Made by a program: the position numbers and the translations under genes. Below, piece after piece: positions 10,265 through 48,591 of a stretch of DNA of 64,000 bases (the stretch's first letter is position 1; the number at the start of each line of letters is the position of its first letter). The notes under the pieces were generated by a model, which was not told where the DNA came from, did no database searches, and saw nothing but the letters and a program-made list of their open reading frames with translations. The stretch is from an uncultured Dehalococcoidia bacterium. GTDB taxonomy: Bacteria > Chloroflexota > Dehalococcoidia > Lucifugimonadales > Australimonadaceae. Where the stretch lies: NCBI GenBank assembly GCA_958295525.1, contig OY282355.1:2289931-2353930 (forward strand), written 5' to 3'.

Positions 10265-10435
10265 AGCGGTCCTCCTCTTCCTTTCAGGGACCTTGCGTAA
10301 CCTTCCGCGCCCGGCGGGATTTGTAGATGTTAGGCAATTCGTTGACGGAATTGGCCCGACGAACAGGCCAATATGGAGACGAACATTCGCGACAACCGCA
10401 ACGATGCCGCTCCAAGCCCTGCGGGATGGTTTGAA

Positions 10436-10592
10436 GACGATGCGCTACGCACATCGTCCGGGGGCGAGATTCCCGCCTGCGCGGGAATGACGGGGCAAGG
10501 GGGCGCTTGCGCGCCGACTGGATTCCCGCCTGCGCGGGAATGACGGGGCAAGGGGGCGCTGCGCGCCACTGGATTCCCGCCTTCGCGGGAAT
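10436..10592. repeat. Cluster of three dispersed palindromes plus a companion hairpin
   Basis: Copies of the dispersed palindrome (core TTCCCGCCTRCGCGGGAA followed by TGACGGG) at 10469-10488, 10522-10541 and 10573-10592. They are preceded by a second hairpin at 10436-10458 (GACGATGCGC, three-base loop, imperfect complement). They fill most of the 477-base gap between the RidA and mrp genes. Noncoding. Confidence 0.85.
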
Positions 10593-18543: not shown

Positions 18544-20415
18544 ATGGAACCTACCAAACCGACTATACGTGTCCTCTTCGGACACCCTGTCGTCTACAAC
18601 ATCCCCTATTACCAGAGAACCTACGTCTGGGACGAGAGAAGCCAGTGGGAGCCTCTCTGGTTTGACGTTGTCGGCCTAGCCGACCGGCTAGTGGGCGCAA
18701 CTCCAAAGGATGCGATGAGGCAGAAGCCCCATTTCTTGGGCGCCGCCGTCCTCAAGGAGACGACGCAGCCAGGCGATGAGGTCAGGGTGCAAACCGTCGT
18801 CGACGGCCAGCAACGCATAACGACAACGCAGTTGCTCTTGGCTGCCATAGCGGACGCCCTCAAAGAGTTTCCGGCACTGGAGGGCTCTGAGATGCTGGCG
18901 AGAAACCTGACCATAAATTCGGTAATGAGGAAAGAAGTTGGCGACACGCCATTCAAAGTCGATCCTTTAGGCAGGGATTTCCGTTCGTTTGATGACGTAA
19001 TGCGTGCAAGCAAGGACGGGAACCAACCTATTCAAGTCCAGGGACGCATTGGCGATTGCTACCGCTTTTTCCTGAAGAAATCTTCCGAATGGCTTACGAA
19101 AGATGGAGAATCGGAAGGAGTCCTTATCAGCAGAGCCGAGGCTTTGTGTGCGGCCATATCCGATAAGTTGCAAGTCGTAGCCATATACTTGGATCCCGGC
19201 GAGAACGAATACGCGATATTCGAAGCGCTCAACGCCCGTGGGGAGCCTCTATCGGAATGGGAAAAAGTGAAGAACTACATCCTCTTCAAAGCCGGTGAAG
19301 ACGGACATGACCAATCCGAAATCTACAAAACTCACTTGGAATTCTTCGATGGCTCCGAATGGATGAAAGGGATAGGCAGAGGCGCGGCTAGGCGGCGAAA
19401 GTCGGACCTGTTCTTGGATTACTGGCTTGAGTCTGAATTGCTTCACGACGTCAACGCCCGTTATGTTTTCCGTGAGTTCAGGAGCGCGATCGATAGCCAC
19501 AACCACAATCTAGTACAGTGGTGCCAACATATGAACCAGAATGGGGAGTATTTCTTGGAATGGGAGGGTTTCTCTGGTCTCAATGGAGATGTAGAATCTC
19601 TCTATCATGCTCGAAGAAATGCTCTTGGAATTGGTGCAATATGGCCATTCTTGATGGGCCTTTCACGCATCCAAATGCAAAAGTCGGATCAGTACAGGTG
19701 TTTCCGCGCGCTTGACAGTTTTATGTGGCGACGCGCAATCGTAGGCATATCGACTCGGAATTACGACGCAGTCACGGAGTACTTGCTTAAAGCGTTGGAC
19801 AAGGCTCGCAGAAATCCCACTGGTGACCACCCGTACAGCGATGCAGTAATAGAAGATCTCCTTGACTCGCAGGATACCCGGGCATACCTTTGGCCTGAAG
19901 ACGAAGAGGTTGCGCAAAGTATCCGCAATAACTCGTTCTACATGTCCGGCACCCTAACGCGTACTATACTCGAGGCTGTTGAACGCGCGATGATGCGTGG
20001 TCACCACCCCGGCAACACCAACCTCTCCAGCAAACTGCCGATAGAGCACCTGATGCCCCAGACGCGAAATGAAGAAGATTGGCCCATACCTCAAGCCGAG
20101 GGCGATGACGAGGAAACGCTTGAGTCACGTAGAATTGAGCGTCGGTACTCCATTCAGCGTCTTGGAAACTTGACTTTGGTTACGCATGGACTGAACTCGA
20201 AACTGAGCAACAAGCCCTGGGTCAAAAAGCATCAAATTCTCCACGAAGAAGACAACCTCTACATCAATAAAGACTTGCTCAACCACGCGCCTCAAGACCA
20301 CTGGGACGAGGAGCAAATTCGCTTGCGCGGGGAGCGGTTGGCAGGCTACATCCTCCAAATCTGGCCTCATGGTCACGCCGTGACAGGCGAGATCGAGAAG
20401 ATACGTCCGGCGTAA
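18544..20415 (+). CDS. Fused DUF262-DUF1524 protein (GmrSD-type restriction nuclease)
   Basis: 623 residues joining a GmrS-like N-terminal DUF262 domain and a GmrD-like C-terminal HNH domain. IPYYQRTYVW (20-29), HFLGAAVL and the nucleotide-binding VDGQQRITTTQLLL (86-99) define DUF262. Near residue 500, IEHLMPQT gives the HNH His, and RLGNLTLVTHGLNSKLSNKPWVKK the last HNH strand with its Asn. Known relatives (GmrSD, BrxU, SspE) cleave modified phage DNA. It stands alone, with no DNA-modification genes beside it. The base composition is visibly lower in GC than the flanks, suggesting horizontal acquisition. The target modification is unknown. Confidence 0.85.
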   Translation: MEPTKPTIRVLFGHPVVYNIPYYQRTYVWDERSQWEPLWFDVVGLADRLVGATPKDAMRQKPHFLGAAVLKETTQPGDEVRVQTVVDGQQRITTTQLLLAAIADALKEFPALEGSEMLARNLTINSVMRKEVGDTPFKVDPLGRDFRSFDDVMRASKDGNQPIQVQGRIGDCYRFFLKKSSEWLTKDGESEGVLISRAEALCAAISDKLQVVAIYLDPGENEYAIFEALNARGEPLSEWEKVKNYILFKAGEDGHDQSEIYKTHLEFFDGSEWMKGIGRGAARRRKSDLFLDYWLESELLHDVNARYVFREFRSAIDSHNHNLVQWCQHMNQNGEYFLEWEGFSGLNGDVESLYHARRNALGIGAIWPFLMGLSRIQMQKSDQYRCFRALDSFMWRRAIVGISTRNYDAVTEYLLKALDKARRNPTGDHPYSDAVIEDLLDSQDTRAYLWPEDEEVAQSIRNNSFYMSGTLTRTILEAVERAMMRGHHPGNTNLSSKLPIEHLMPQTRNEEDWPIPQAEGDDEETLESRRIERRYSIQRLGNLTLVTHGLNSKLSNKPWVKKHQILHEEDNLYINKDLLNHAPQDHWDEEQIRLRGERLAGYILQIWPHGHAVTGEIEKIRPA

Positions 20416-20462: not shown

Positions 20463-20493
20463 CACGAAAGCAGGAATCTACTGGGAGCGCAGT
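20463..20493. repeat. Degenerate remnant of the dispersed palindrome
   Basis: The sequence CGAAAGCAGGAATCTACTGG (inside 20463-20493) matches, with a few changes, the right arm and flank of the copy at 33775-33806 (CGAAAGCGGGAACCTACTGG). It appears to be a decayed copy. Confidence 0.5.
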
Positions 20494-21967: not shown

Positions 21968-23197
21968 GTGAGCAGGATGGAGACGGATGCGCCCGGCGGC
22001 GGAATCGCGCTGTACGTCCATATCCCATTCTGCGAGTCCAAGTGCCCGTACTGCGATTTCAACACCTACGCGGGCATCGAGCCGCTGATGCCGGCCTACG
22101 CCGCCGCGCTCGCCCGTGAGATCGAGCAGTGGGGCGCGTGGCTGGGCAGGCCGGCGCTCGCCAGCGTCTTCTTCGGCGGCGGCACGCCGTCCTACCTTCC
22201 GGCGCGCGACCTGCGGCGGCTGACGCAGGCGATTCAGGAAGCGTTTCGCTTGCCGGGCGACGCGGAGGCGACGGTCGAGGCGAATCCGGGCGACTGCTCC
22301 CGCGAGCGTCTGCTCGAGATGCGCCGCGCCGGATTCAACCGCATCTCCATCGGCGTTCAGTCGTTCGACGACGCGGAGTTGCGGGCGCTCGGTCGGCGGC
22401 ACACCGCCGAGCGCGCCGCGCAGGCCGTTCGGGACGCGCGTCAGGCGGGATTCGAGAACGTGAGCCTCGATCTGATGTTCGGCCTTCCGAATCAGCGCGT
22501 CTCCACGTGGGAGCGCTCCGTCGAGCGGGCGCTCGCGCTGGGGCCGGATCACATTTCGGCCTACGCGCTGACGCTGGAGCCGGGCACGCCGATGGAGGCG
22601 TCCGTACGGTCGGGCGCGACGCCGGAGCCCGACGCCGACCTCGCGGCGGAGGCGTACCTCCTCGCGCAGGCGGCGTTCGCCGGCGCGGGGCTCCGGCAGT
22701 ACGAAATCTCCAATTGGGCGCGCGCCGGACGGGAGAGCGCGCACAACCTCGCCTACTGGCGCAGCCTGCCATACCTCGGCGTCGGGCCGGGCGCGCACAG
22801 TTATCTGCACGGCGTCGGCGCGCTCGGGCGGTTCGGCGTCCGCTTCGCCAACGTCAAGCCACCCCGCGCGTACATCGAGCGCGTCGAGGCATGGACGGCG
22901 GACGGGCCGCTCGATCCGGACGGAGTCGAGTCGGCGTCCGCCGTGGACTCGCGCGAATTTGTCAGCCGGCGCGGGGCGATGGCGGAGACGATGATGATGG
23001 GCTTGCGGCTGAACGCGGGCGTGAGCGACGCCGATTTCCGCGCCCGATTCGGCGAGGGCGTGGGCGACGCTTTCCCCGGCCCTGTCGCCGAGTGCGCCGA
23101 CCTCGGCCTGACGGAATGGGCGGACGGCGCGCTGCGCCTCACGGAGCACGGTCGGCTGCTCGGCAACGAGGCGTTCGTCCGCTTCGTAGGAGCGTGA
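21968..23197 (+). CDS. hemW: HemW-type radical SAM protein (heme chaperone)
   Basis: 409 residues. The radical SAM cluster motif is C22-x3-C26-x2-C29 (HIPFCESKCPYCDF). FFGGGTPSYL, TVEANPGDC, GFNRISIGVQSFDDAELRALGRRHTAERA, DLMFGLPNQ and HISAYALTLEPGTPM follow in the HemW order. The segment EISNWARAGRESAHNLAYWR is typical of HemW. The extended N-terminal residues that define true anaerobic coproporphyrinogen oxidase HemN are missing, so a heme-trafficking role is more likely than CPO activity. The GTG start lies 9 bases after ychF. Confidence 0.9.
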   Translation: MSRMETDAPGGGIALYVHIPFCESKCPYCDFNTYAGIEPLMPAYAAALAREIEQWGAWLGRPALASVFFGGGTPSYLPARDLRRLTQAIQEAFRLPGDAEATVEANPGDCSRERLLEMRRAGFNRISIGVQSFDDAELRALGRRHTAERAAQAVRDARQAGFENVSLDLMFGLPNQRVSTWERSVERALALGPDHISAYALTLEPGTPMEASVRSGATPEPDADLAAEAYLLAQAAFAGAGLRQYEISNWARAGRESAHNLAYWRSLPYLGVGPGAHSYLHGVGALGRFGVRFANVKPPRAYIERVEAWTADGPLDPDGVESASAVDSREFVSRRGAMAETMMMGLRLNAGVSDADFRARFGEGVGDAFPGPVAECADLGLTEWADGALRLTEHGRLLGNEAFVRFVGA

Positions 23198-23215
23198 GCA
23201 GGCGCGCCCCAGGAG

Positions 23216-23533
23216 GTTCCCGCTTTCGCGGGAATGACGTGGCGCGTGGGGTGATCTGGAGACGATGCGCTGCGCGCATCGTCCGGCGCTTGCGCGCCGC
23301 TGGGTTCCCGCCTACGCGGGCAGGGCGTGGTTTTCATCGCGGCGCTCACCCTACGAAGAACCTGTTGCGGGCGATTTCCTCCGCGTAGGCGGCGTCTGCG
23401 TTCGCGTCCGCGTCATGGGATGCGGGATTCCCGCCTACGCGGGAATGACGGTCTCCGTAGGCGGCGCCGGACGGCGAATGCGGGTCGTCGTCCGCGGACG
23501 ACGGGATTCCTGGATTCCCGCCTACGCGGGAAT
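23216..23533. repeat. Cluster of dispersed palindromes and a companion hairpin
   Basis: Palindrome copies at 23216-23235, 23304-23320 (right arm degraded), 23427-23446 and 23514-23533. Between the first two lies a perfect 10-bp hairpin at 23261-23283 (GACGATGCGC-TGC-GCGCATCGTC). The first copy with that hairpin matches, in inverted orientation, the block at 33731-33812. They occupy most of the 490-base gap after hemW. Confidence 0.85.
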
Positions 23534-23592
23534 GACGAATTGGAGGCGGGGATGACGGGCAAGGGGGGCGGAACGACGATGTGAGGGCGGGG

Positions 23593-23598
23593 TATAAT
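23593..23598 (+). promoter_or_regulatory. Candidate -10 element (TATAAT)
   Basis: A perfect TATAAT at 23593-23598 in otherwise GC-rich DNA, about 90 bases before the best start of the downstream gene. No good -35 hexamer is seen at the usual spacing. Confidence 0.45.
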
Positions 23599-23688
23599 CA
23601 TCCTCGCCAAACCAAGCGCAGCGCTGAATTTGTGACGCTCATACGGCATACCCCACCACCTCCGAAAAATTGCGGCGCCCGCTTGCAG

Positions 23689-25965
23689 ATGGCTATGAGG
23701 ATGCTTGCCCCGCACTGGGGCGCGCTGCTCGCGCTCGCGCTGTTCTTGGCGGCGGGGCTTGCCGTTCTGGACGACTACGGCGTTAACCTGGACGAGCCGG
23801 CGCAGAGAGGCCACGCAGTAGCGACCCTCGCGCATTTGCAGGGAGACGCCGACGCGCTGGATTCGCGCGGCCACAACAAATTCTACGGGATGGCGTTCGA
23901 GTTACCGCTTCTGCTCGTTGAGCGCGCTTTCGGTCTGCAAGACATCCGGGAGATTTACCTCTCCCGCCACCTGATTACGCATCTCTTCTTTCTGACTGGA
24001 GGGCTGTTCGCCTACCTCCTCGCGCGCCGGCTGCTCGTCAACAGGCTTCTCGCGCTCTTTGCGATGCTCATTTTCCTCTTGCACCCCCGCCTGTACGCGA
24101 ACTCGCTGCCCGGCAGCATAGACATTTCGTTTCTCGCGCTGTTCATCGTCGCGCTCTATCTGGCGCATCGGGCGTTCCGAAGAGACAGTATCTCCGCGTT
24201 CGTTCTGCTGGGCGCTGGAGTTGGCGCGCTCATCAATCTCCGCATTATGGGCGTCGTTCTGCTCGCGGCGATTCCCACGATGCGGGCGCTCGACCTGGCG
24301 TTCGCGCAAGGATGGGCGGAGCGCAAGCGCGTCATTCTCACGACGGGGGCGTTCGCGCTGGCCGGCGGCCTCACGGTCTACGTTCTATTGCCGTACCTCT
24401 GGGGCGACCTGGCCGGACGCTCCGTTGAGTGGTGGACAACGCTCTCCGATCATCCAAATAACGCGCACCAGTTATTCCGCGGGGCGGTATATGAGAGCAC
24501 GCGCTTTCCAGCGGACTACATCCCTGTTTGGTTCTCCATTACGAGTCCGCCGTTCGCGCTGCTGCTGGGCGTGATTGGCGCCGCCGCGGTCATCGCGGGA
24601 TGCGTTAGGACGCCCATTCAAGCGCTTCGGAACACGCGCATGCGCTTCGACTTGCTGCTGATTGGTTGCATCGCGGTCTCCGTCTCCGCAGTGATTCTGC
24701 TGGACCTCAACGTCTACGACGGATGGCGGCATATGCGCTATCTGTGGGCGCCGTTCTCCCTCCTCGCCGTGTTCGGGCTGCGATGGCTCGTCTCAATGCT
24801 CAGTCAAGCGCGCCTGCGGGCGGCGGTCCACGGGGCGGCGGGGGCGGGATTGATCGCAACGCTCGTTTCGATGGCGTTGATTCATCCGAATCAGCAAGTC
24901 TCCTTCAACTTTTTCGTGGACAGGACAACCCTGGAACATCTCGGATCTCAGTACCTGATGGATTATTGGAAGGGCACGTCGCGGCAAGCGTTCGAATGGT
25001 TGCTCGACCGAAACGCATCCTCTCCGGTGAAGGTGAATCAGTCCGACTTCGACACTATGGTGAGGCACAACGCGGGGATTCTGCCCAAAGCCGATAGGGA
25101 CCGCGTGCTCACCGCGCCGGACGCTGATGCGCTCACTATCACATACGGGCCGGCGGCGGACGAGGAGCGTGCGCTCTACGCGCTGAAAGTCTACGGCAGC
25201 ACGGCCGCGTCCCTCTCTCGGAAGGCGGATCTGCGGGCAGCCTACGCCGCGGTCAGGGCAAGCGAACCGATACTCCGCTCCGTGTTCGACGTCCATCACG
25301 TGAACGGCGCGCTCGTCTACGTCAAGGAGCCTTGCAGCGAAGCCGATGCGACCGGCCGCTTCCAGTTGTGGATTGTTCCTGAGCATGAGTCCGATCTGAC
25401 CGGCGCATGGGCGCGGCTCGGATACGAGGACCGCAGTTTCCGCTTTCCCTGGCACGGGGCGGTTTTCGACGGGAAGTGCGTCGCTTCTTTTCCTCTGCCT
25501 TCCTACGCCGTCGCCTCCATCCGGTTAAGGCAATGGCCGCCGGGAGGAGGGCAGGCAATTGATGATACGCCGTTATGGGAGTCCAGCGCCGTGTTGGATC
25601 CGGACGCGTGGCGGGCGGCGCATCAGGCCGCCGTTGCCAGGGAACCGCTGGCGGGCGCCGTGTTCGATCTGTATCTCGGCGACAGGGAGGTTGTCTACGT
25701 GAAAGAGCCATGTAGCCTGGCGGACACGGATGCGCGATTCTTCCTGCACATCGTTCCTGAGCAGGTGGACGATTTGCCGAGAGAGCGGCGGGGGCACGGC
25801 TTCGATAATATGGATTTCGAATTCTTCCTGCGCGGCGGGCAATTCGACGGCAAGTGCATGGCCCACATCCCGCTCCCTGGCTACCCCATTGCGTCCGTCC
25901 GAACAGGGCAGTTCGTCGGTGGGGAAGGCGAATTGTGGCGCACGGAGTTCGCGGTTAGGCGATAG
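23689..25965 (+). CDS. Large polytopic membrane protein with duplicated C-terminal domains (glycosyltransferase-like)
   Basis: 758 residues from the ATG at 23689; in-frame ATGs at 23695 and 23701 are alternatives, and the open frame upstream crosses the TATAAT, so it is probably untranslated. The first ~400 residues hold roughly ten hydrophobic helices. NLDEPAQ early in the first loop, with its acidic residue, resembles GT-C glycosyltransferases of the PMT/ArnT type, and an LHPRLYANSLPGSIDI segment follows. The C-terminal part has two related ~90-residue units, each with YVKEPCS-AD, a I-VPE strand, a FDGKC motif and PLPSYAVASIR or PLPGYPIASVR. The conserved Cys pairs may form disulfides outside the membrane. 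The transferase role is inference. Confidence 0.6.
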   Translation: MAMRMLAPHWGALLALALFLAAGLAVLDDYGVNLDEPAQRGHAVATLAHLQGDADALDSRGHNKFYGMAFELPLLLVERAFGLQDIREIYLSRHLITHLFFLTGGLFAYLLARRLLVNRLLALFAMLIFLLHPRLYANSLPGSIDISFLALFIVALYLAHRAFRRDSISAFVLLGAGVGALINLRIMGVVLLAAIPTMRALDLAFAQGWAERKRVILTTGAFALAGGLTVYVLLPYLWGDLAGRSVEWWTTLSDHPNNAHQLFRGAVYESTRFPADYIPVWFSITSPPFALLLGVIGAAAVIAGCVRTPIQALRNTRMRFDLLLIGCIAVSVSAVILLDLNVYDGWRHMRYLWAPFSLLAVFGLRWLVSMLSQARLRAAVHGAAGAGLIATLVSMALIHPNQQVSFNFFVDRTTLEHLGSQYLMDYWKGTSRQAFEWLLDRNASSPVKVNQSDFDTMVRHNAGILPKADRDRVLTAPDADALTITYGPAADEERALYALKVYGSTAASLSRKADLRAAYAAVRASEPILRSVFDVHHVNGALVYVKEPCSEADATGRFQLWIVPEHESDLTGAWARLGYEDRSFRFPWHGAVFDGKCVASFPLPSYAVASIRLRQWPPGGGQAIDDTPLWESSAVLDPDAWRAAHQAAVAREPLAGAVFDLYLGDREVVYVKEPCSLADTDARFFLHIVPEQVDDLPRERRGHGFDNMDFEFFLRGGQFDGKCMAHIPLPGYPIASVRTGQFVGGEGELWRTEFAVRR

Positions 25966-26127
25966 GTTCCCGCCTACACGGGAATGATGGGACAACAAGG
26001 GGGTCCCGTCTACGCGGGAATGACGGGGCAGGGGGCGAGGTTCCCGCCTACGCGGGAATGACGGACAGGAGGGGGGCGCGCGGGGAGGGCGAGGCGAGAG
26101 GGGCGAGATTCCTGCCTACGCGGGAAT
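25966..26127. repeat. Cluster of four dispersed palindromes
   Basis: Copies at 25966-25985, about 26001-26020, 26040-26059 and 26108-26127, each a TTCCCGCCTACGCGGGAA variant followed by TGA-GG. The first begins right at the stop of the upstream gene. Confidence 0.85.
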
Positions 26128-26180
26128 GACGGGCAAGGGGGGGGCGGGAATGATGGAGGTGGGGAAGGGGGAGGCAACGC

Positions 26181-33444: not shown

Positions 33445-33794
33445 GTTCCCGCCTACGCGGGAACGACGGGGCACATGGGGCGCTTGCGCGCCGACTGGAT
33501 TCCCGCCTGCGCGGGAATGACGGGGGAGCGGGCGGGATTCCCGCCTACGCGGGAACGACGGGGCACATGGGGCGCTTGCGCGCCGACTGGATTCCCGCCT
33601 ACGCGGGAATGACGGGGGAGTGGGCGGGATTCCCGCCTACGCGGGAATGACAGGGCAAGGGGCGGGATTCCCGCCTGCGCGGGAATGACGACCCTGGGGA
33701 GCAGGCGGGACGCTGGGGGCGGGAACTACGGGGCGCCGCGCGCATCGTCTCCAAACCACCCCGCCCGCCACGTCATTCCCGCGAAAGCGGGAAC
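33445..33794. repeat. Seven dispersed palindromes, partly in a 92-bp tandem unit
   Basis: Palindromes at 33445-33464, 33499-33518, 33537-33556, 33591-33610, 33629-33648, 33667-33686 and 33775-33794. The first four form two near-identical 92-bp units (start to start 33446, 33538, then 33630), each palindrome + GGCGCTTGCGCGCC spacer + palindrome. The last copy, with a half hairpin GCGCATCGTC just before it, is the mirror of the block near 23216-23283. They fill the 613-base gap before glmU, leaving only the last ~225 bases unique. Confidence 0.88.
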
Positions 33795-33928
33795 CTACTG
33801 GGAGCGTCCCCACGCGCATGCAGGGCCCTGTGGCCATGTCCTGCGCCGCGCAGTCGAGTCACCCCGTCGTGCCCCGGCGGATACTGGATTCCCGCCGCCC
33901 GCCGCCCCGCTCAGGCGGCGCAGTAAGG

Positions 33929-40186: not shown

Positions 40187-40220
40187 CCAGCCTGCGCCCC
40201 GCGCCCGCCTGTCGTCGTCG

Positions 40221-40345
40221 TTCCCGCATAGGCGGGCAGGGCGTGGCAGGTAGGTTCCCGGGTAGGCGGGCAGGGCGTGGCAGGTAGGTTCCCGCGCAGG
40301 CGGACAGGGCATGGCAGGTAGGTTCCCGCGCAGGCGGACAGGGCG
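40221..40345. repeat. Four tandem 34-bp units of the dispersed palindrome family
   Basis: TTCCCG-N5-GGCGGRCAGGGC-N-TGGCAGGTAGG type units begin at 40221, 40255, 40289 and 40323, an exact 34-base period. The palindrome arms are degraded, and the units have expanded in tandem. About 110 further bases before the next gene show no gene. Confidence 0.85.
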
Positions 40346-40454
40346 GGGCCCCCGGGGAGTAATTGGAGCGCATGTGTCGCATTGCCGCCTAGCGCTGCCC
40401 TGCCCTGCGGCGCCCCGCGCCCGCCTGTCGCGTCGTCGCGCTTGCGCGCCCGCG

Positions 40455-44387: not shown

Positions 44388-44540
44388 ATTCCCGCCTACG
44401 CGGGAATGACGATGAGGGGGCGGGAGCGACGGGGGCAAGGGGCGAGATTCCCGCCTACGCGGGAATGACGATGAGGGGGGCGAGATTCCCGCCTACGCGG
44501 GAATGACGGCAGGGGGCGAGATTCCCGCCTACGCGGGAAT
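44388..44540. repeat. Cluster of four dispersed palindromes upstream of groES
   Basis: Intact copies at 44388-44407, 44447-44466, 44485-44504 and 44521-44540 with TGACG tails. A half copy (GTTCCCGCCTACG) follows near 44580, 30 bases before the groES promoter. Confidence 0.88.
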
Positions 44541-44609
44541 GACGGCAGGGGGAGGGAACGACGGGGGCAGGGGGCACCGTTCCCGCCTACGCCAACCGTC
44601 TCGCGCCTA

Positions 44610-48358: not shown

Positions 48359-48493
48359 GTTCCCGCCTACGCGGGAATGACGGGGCACAGGGGCGAGGTT
48401 CCCGCCTACGCGGGAATGACGGGGCAAGGGGGCGAGATTCCCGCCTACGCGGGAATGACGGGGCACAGGGGCGTAGGTTCCCGCCTACGCGGG
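48359..48493. repeat. Cluster of four dispersed palindromes
   Basis: Copies at 48359-48378, 48398-48417, 48437-48456 and 48477-48493 at a near-regular 39-40 base spacing, within the 293-base divergent gap between the AAA ATPase and the second Rieske gene. Confidence 0.88.
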
Positions 48494-48591
48494 CAGGGCG
48501 GGGCACGGGGGCGTAGGCAGCGGCTACCATCGCTCCGCGTGGGAGCGCTACAATCGCGCCAATAGGCCCGTTTGCATGGAGGAGAACGACA

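Follow-up and report, generated by a model that had tools for sequence, protein, structure and literature searches.

Head-to-tail arrays and a structured module of dRS3-like palindromes in a Dehalococcoidia genome

CGTC-1 palindromes in Chloroflexota

The CGTC-1 class of REP palindromes is defined by a CGTC tag, an 8-bp stem beginning with AT, a 4-nt loop and a CCA tail, and includes dRS3 of Neisseria as well as RPE-6 of Rickettsia (Di Nocera et al. 2013; PMC3733652). Inverted (HH) dimers predominate in this class and head-to-tail CGTC dimers are negligible; the pattern is a typical organisation and not a strict criterion, and clusters are formed in Neisseria and Wolbachia (PMC3733652). Chloroflexota are absent from the CGTC list of this survey (PMC3733652). 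The dRS3/Nf1 subtype of the neisserial palindrome is given as ATTCCCRCCTRCGCGGRAAK (PMC3898611). Our literature search returned nothing on SAR202 palindromic repeats or on multicopy terminases.

The window analysed here, a stretch of 64,000 nucleotides, comes from the 2.51 Mb genome of an uncultured Dehalococcoidia bacterium and holds a repeat unit of about 122 nt, which on direct reading comprises a palindrome (REP1), a spacer and a hairpin (H2), then H3, another hairpin, and finally the palindrome REP2, ending at 23327:

23208-23215 (+): 5' border tag, reading CCCAGGAG in this copy and CCCAGTAG in the consensus, where conservation starts to rise across the 73 aligned copies
23216-23239 (+): REP1, CGTC-1/dRS3-class palindrome, GTTCCCGC-TTTC-GCGGGAAT-GACG, read directly; a paired C-G becomes T-A in other copies
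23240-23260 (+): conserved spacer TGGCGCGTGGGGTGATCTGGA, from the 73-copy alignment
23261-23283 (+): H2 hairpin, GACGATGCGC-TGC-GCGCATCGTC, with covarying arms and 90 genome sites at <=2 mismatches
23284-23299 (+): H3 hairpin, CGGCGC-TTGC-GCGCCG, present in 46 of 73 copies and in the centroid of the DNA fold
23304-23327 (+): REP2 palindrome, GTTCCCGC-CTAC-GCGGGCAG-GGCG, the 3' border of the module; tag side altered in the window copy
23427-23450 (+): CGTC-1 REP in the array of the module, from the tag-based REP scan
23514-23537 (+): CGTC-1 REP in the same array, from the same scan

Judged by its letters, the palindrome fits the definition of a CGTC-1 REP, the class of the neisserial dRS3. Read on the opposite strand as CGTC-ATTCCCGC-GTAG-GCGGGAAT-CCAG, it shows the 8-bp stem starting with AT and the 4-nt loop (ATTCCCGC-GTAG-GCGGGAAT). 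The CGTC tag stands at one end, and the pattern CGTCATTCCCGC-N4-GCGGGAAYC has ~1,030 genome sites at <=1 mismatch, compared with none in the reversed control. The CCA tail is found in palindromes of the REP2 type (end AATCCAG), not in those of the REP1 type (end AACCTACTGG), whose untagged side often begins with GT. The 20-mer ATTCCCGCCTACGCGGGAAT fits the Nf1 subtype, as do 13 of the 14 dRS3 palindromes (ATTCCC-N8-GGGAAT) in the window. REP2 with its flank shares 96.8% identity over 31 nt with repeats of N. gonorrhoeae and Azospirillum; for the rest of the module no comparable match was obtained, Neisseria records being matched only through palindromic parts. The exact core pattern had no match in named genomes, a searched set that possibly does not include the genome under study.

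In the order-level set, 17 of 59 genomes bear REPs, and one of another family (G029) has 556. The HemN-like protein encoded beside the module has its closest named relatives in Chloroflexota, SAR202 and Dehalococcoidia MAGs (75-79% identity). As a separate observation, the record of the Microcystis phage MaAM05 (274 kb) contains several CGTC-type palindromes between genes, and six of its places match the H3-REP2 part of the module; the observation refers to 186958-187603.

A module within a mosaic of reused units

A sequence-only reading of the window had reported a palindrome, a spacer and a second hairpin at 23216-23283, and direct reading gives exactly these parts (GTTCCCGCTTTCGCGGGAATGACG, spacer, GACGATGCGC-TGC-GCGCATCGTC). 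The unit so delimited was too short: conservation spans ~122 nt, beginning at CCCAGTAGG, taking in H3 and REP2 and ending with TGACGG. Alignment with flanks, which had been suggested for finding the borders, indeed makes them sharp, conservation rising at CCCAGTAGG and falling past TGACGG in 73 non-redundant copies, with the consensus CCCAGTAG-GTTCCCGCTTTCGCGGGAATGACG-TGGCGCGTGGGGTGATTTGGA-GACGATGCGCTACGCGCATCGTC-CGGCGCTTGCGCGCC-(N)ACTGG-ATTCCCGCCTACGCGGGAATGACGG.

Copies were studied in 334 kb of stretches picked around H2 sites, and therefore copy counts are lower bounds and array statistics describe a non-random sample. H2 at <=2 mismatches occurs at 90 genome sites (none for the reversed pattern), the palindrome, at the same threshold, is matched 462 times in forward and 389 times in reverse orientation (none in the control), and BLAST with 23190-23345 found more than 40 near-full copies, with E as low as 2e-58 apart from the copy in the window; chance can therefore be excluded as the origin of the repeat. 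The sequence-only reading had taken the hairpins for parts of a larger composite rather than independent elements and had made this depend on further copies joining both; since REP1, spacer and H2 stand together in at least 73 non-redundant copies, 46 of them full, with H3 and REP2, and 27 partial, the composite is supported. That it is also mobile, as was proposed, we infer. Before removal of redundancy, the 92 core matches comprised 48 with REP1, H2 and H3-REP2, 29 with REP1 and H2 followed by something else (a GGCGAG-type REP in the place of H3-REP2 in 25 of them) and 15 without REP1, some of the latter being the opposite strand of palindromes counted already. Linkers fall into recurring classes, CCAGTAGG being paired with TGGCGCGTGGGG in 54 REPs, and other pairings occur too; at 22 of 117 sites H2 directly abuts a REP with which it has the GACG/CGTC tag in common. 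Because the units recur in differing combinations, the structure is a mosaic of reused units and not one fixed transposon.

Elsewhere in the window, the following loci carry the module or its palindromes:

33727-33802 (-): second module copy, with REP1 at 33771-33794, the spacer and H2 with a degraded 3' arm (GACGATGCGC-GCG-GCGCCCCGTaG)
33445-33691 (+): head-to-tail CGTC-1 REP array beside this inverted copy, containing a 92-bp tandem duplication of 95% identity
10469-10597 (+): three CGTC-1 REPs, head-to-tail, with H3-type hairpins, from direct reading and the REP scan
25966-26132 (+): CGTC-1 REP array, intergenic
44388-44545 (+): CGTC-1 REP array, intergenic
48359-48501 (+): CGTC-1 REP array, partly within a heuristic gene call

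The inverted copy had been noticed from the letters, as had two lesser traces, both recovered here: H2 with one mismatch (GCaCATCGTC) at 10436-10458 (+), adjoining REPs and lacking REP1, and a decayed piece at 20463-20490 (-), which is the outer half of REP1 plus flank (CGAAAGCAGGAAtCTACTGGGAGCGC).

Orientation was assigned by the CGTC tag. In the H2-centred stretches, 387 of the 399 neighbouring REP pairs lying <=150 bp apart are head-to-tail (97%) and 12 are inverted; the window itself shows head-to-tail order in nearly every neighbouring pair. A single orientation prevails in 112 of 128 arrays, with arrays on both strands and, within the fetched stretches, no consistent replication-strand bias by genome position. 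Relatives likewise have mostly head-to-tail pairs (47 vs 17 in G029, small samples in the others), and in Neisseria we found mainly inverted pairs, in a very small sample. The linkers of adjacent REP pairs reach a similarity of >=0.8 in 14% of cases, compared with 2.5% between arrays. Outside called genes lie 28 of the 31 window REPs (heuristic gene calls cover 82% of the window); module copies occur on both strands and are mostly intergenic, and arrays are present in tandem, convergent and divergent gene contexts.

The arms of the hairpins vary in a partly paired fashion. H2 arm pairs are AT/AT (20), AG/CT (9) and GG/CC (6), with half-changed forms as well, chiefly AT/CT (13); 24 cells are double-compensated, compared with a mean of 5.9 and a maximum of 19 in 2000 arm shuffles that ignore kinship. 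In REP1, a paired switch from C-G to T-A divides the copies 21 to 10 with few intermediates, kinship again being ignored. As shared ancestry is uncontrolled and about one third of H2 copies carry an unpaired position, any constraint on arm pairing is loose. Shuffled sequences fold less well than the 125-nt window copy (z -3.0 as RNA, -3.2 as DNA), whose best RNA fold is predicted as a single long nested structure in which REP1 is joined to REP2; Rfam gave no match within the window.

Further features of the window should be mentioned in their own right. A stretch at 10320-10430 (ATGTTAGG..AATTCGTTGAC..AATTGGCC, GACAACCGCAACGA) recurs at genome ~2043.0-2043.1 kb, beside H2 copies at both loci, and in opposite orientation relative to H2. 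At 40220-40349 a tandem array with a 34-bp period has a REP variant as its unit (GTTCCCGCNNAGGCGGGCAGGGCGTGGCAGGTAG). A PMT_2-type protein is encoded at 23581-25965, and its C-terminal ~130 aa recur with 45 matches in this genome and none in five congeners. The 623-aa protein at 18544-20415 (+) has both the N- and the C-terminal domain of GmrSD restriction endonucleases, and the first 300 bp (1-300) are repeated 399 bp downstream at 400-699 with 76% identity.

Probable growth and spread, and the search for a mobiliser

We consider a dRS3/NIME-like mosaic, with local growth by tandem duplication and non-autonomous spread, the probable explanation. In this view the module is a composite of units, each with its own CGTC-1 palindrome: REP1-spacer-H2 is one and H3-CTGG-REP2 another. 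Arrays may lengthen and shorten locally when directly repeated REPs slip or exchange unequally, which would lead to head-to-tail order and similar neighbours. New loci might be reached non-autonomously, by an enzyme acting in trans or by recombination between REPs, and the latter could take along adjoining DNA such as the 3' end of a terminase-like gene. Complementary arms might be kept because the hairpin is needed for spreading or for a role as RNA, or because hairpin-templated repair matches the arms. Local tandem growth and loss is the best-supported part, being backed by array order, neighbour similarity and the polymorphism of gene tails described below; the dispersal of the units suggests their non-autonomous spread.

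Alternatively, the 122-nt module could be one non-autonomous transposon of MITE or REPIN type, moved whole by a transposase in trans, its mosaic look arising from later decay and nested insertion. Sharp borders, hairpins at both ends and 46 near-full copies on both strands agree with this; against it, H3-REP2 is missing after REP1-H2 in 27 of the 73 copies, where another defined unit usually comes next, and inspection of the aligned copies by eye revealed neither target-site duplications nor terminal inverted repeats beyond the palindromes. No insertion event was observed. Borders usually lie inside other REPs, so that no target duplication or empty site can be demonstrated; nor do relatives provide an empty site, as those with the upstream HemN-like gene carry different downstream genes and congeners have no match to the glycosyltransferase-like gene downstream. 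The transposase search of the genome covered two families, and neither Y1 (RAYT, PF01797) nor IS110 DEDD transposases were found, the controls responding and the assembly being 96.5% complete. We regard movement of the module as a whole as unlikely. Among the 59 genomes Y1 occurs in four, none of them REP-bearing (0 of 17); taken alone, this absence is not significant at such small numbers (p=0.31). A resident IS110/Piv mobiliser, an idea taken from the dRS3-targeting Neisseria phage, was dismissed since no such gene was found.

A role of the hairpins chiefly as RNA elements (transcript ends, mRNA stability) under host selection, with copying incidental, would account for the intergenic location, the paired arm changes and a fold exceeding shuffles by z of about -3. 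It seems quite improbable, considering that arrays occur in all three gene contexts, that Rfam has no match in the window, that pairing is broken at a position in roughly a third of the H2 copies and that copy number varies widely among relatives, most of which have none.

A multicopy, stand-alone gene accompanies the repeats. The longer flank that nine module or array sites have in common is its 3' end; the gene resembles terminase large subunits (phrog_2, E=3e-42) and occurs in eight dispersed copies, seven of them at 97-100% identity:

Genome 136.4, 361.5, 715.7, 851.1, 1004.8, 1281.7, 1785.0 and 2276.9 kb: copies of the terminase-like gene
23346-23597 (-): 83-aa ORF ending in ..AEEIARNRFFVG, which is a piece of the gene's 3' end and includes REP peptides in frame

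About 2.2 kb are common to the copies and the flanks differ; congeners have 3-9 matches, some partial. In the neighbourhoods examined non-phage genes predominate (RecJ, ketoacyl synthase, LepA, TldD), a weak match to a head-tail adaptor and a DNA methylase with an HNH domain occurring once each, and no phage gene cluster was seen there. All eight copies lie between REPs and six have an H2 module just downstream; as H2 is missing there in the other two, the module is not a fixed 3' end of this unit. The gene tails contain one to four in-frame REPs encoding RHSR[VE]GGNPAS in genes otherwise 97-98% identical, and REP number thus changes quickly within this genome. Upstream of the genes in congeners we observed a conserved leader, promoter-like TTGCGC..GATGGTA followed by ~90 nt that contain GGACGAGCCGC and the terminator-like GCCCCCTCAGCG..CGAGGGGGCTTTT; it has no Rfam match.

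This terminase-like ATPase-nuclease gene, bounded by REPs and modules, might be an autonomous unit which moves or amplifies the repeats in the genus; among CGTC repeats it would then correspond to the RAYT REPtron, and the ~122-nt modules would be its non-autonomous derivatives. For this speak the dispersed, near-identical copies, their shared 2.2 kb, their position between REPs, the H2 module downstream of six of them and the co-occurrence of gene and REPs in the 59 phylogenetically non-independent genomes (Fisher p=1e-4, or 0.007 when the window's genus is represented by a single genome). It is most improbable nevertheless, because four genomes (G057, G021, G033, G024) have REPs without the gene, seven have the gene without REPs, and REPs on both sides are not the rule for congener copies. 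G029, moreover, holds its 556 REPs without a homologue, which rules the gene out as generally required for REPs. Were it nevertheless a REPtron, REPs in genomes without the gene would need another mobiliser.

Place among known repeats

The repeat belongs with the CGTC-1/dRS3 mosaics and not with the GTAG/RAYT BIMEs. The sequence-only reading had compared it with a BIME, and the likeness extends to the mosaic of palindromes, the conserved linkers and the extra hairpins; the palindromes, however, are of the CGTC-1/dRS3 class and not GTAG, they stand head-to-tail instead of alternating, and no Y1/RAYT gene was found. Membership in the RAYT/BIME group is ruled out by the missing Y1 together with the 97% head-to-tail order. 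With CGTC-1 REPs our palindromes share the tag, the AT-starting 8-bp stem, the 4-nt loop and, in the REP2 type, the CCA tail, as well as high copy number, mainly intergenic location, in-frame occurrence in some genes and the failure to find a dedicated transposase. They differ in forming head-to-tail arrays where inverted dimers predominate in that class, in the CCTACTGG tail of REP1 in place of CCA, and in their host, Chloroflexota being outside the CGTC list of the survey. The in-frame copies in the terminase-like tails resemble the intragenic, RPE-like REPs of Rickettsia. NIMEs (dRS3 palindromes and RS units) are likewise intergenic mosaics, in which ATTCCC-N8-GGGAAT palindromes are interleaved with longer repeats and many palindromes fit the Nf1-phage target subtype; the units between the palindromes here seem not to be neisserial, in so far as Neisseria records were matched only through palindromic parts, and an IS110/Piv gene was not found. 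Head-to-tail arrays and a structured module are what is new relative to the known CGTC-1/dRS3 mosaics.

The near-identity over 31 nt between a Chloroflexota-type genome and Neisseria raises the question of convergence or transfer. How CGTC-class REPs, gonococcal dRS3 included, spread without a known transposase is an open question (PMC3733652). The genome offers a useful test case: it has ~1,030 REPs in 2.5 Mb, the search for Y1 and IS110 genes found none, nearly identical genes differ in REP number and the module is sharply bordered. Its head-to-tail arrays help to tell local tandem growth from long-range spread.
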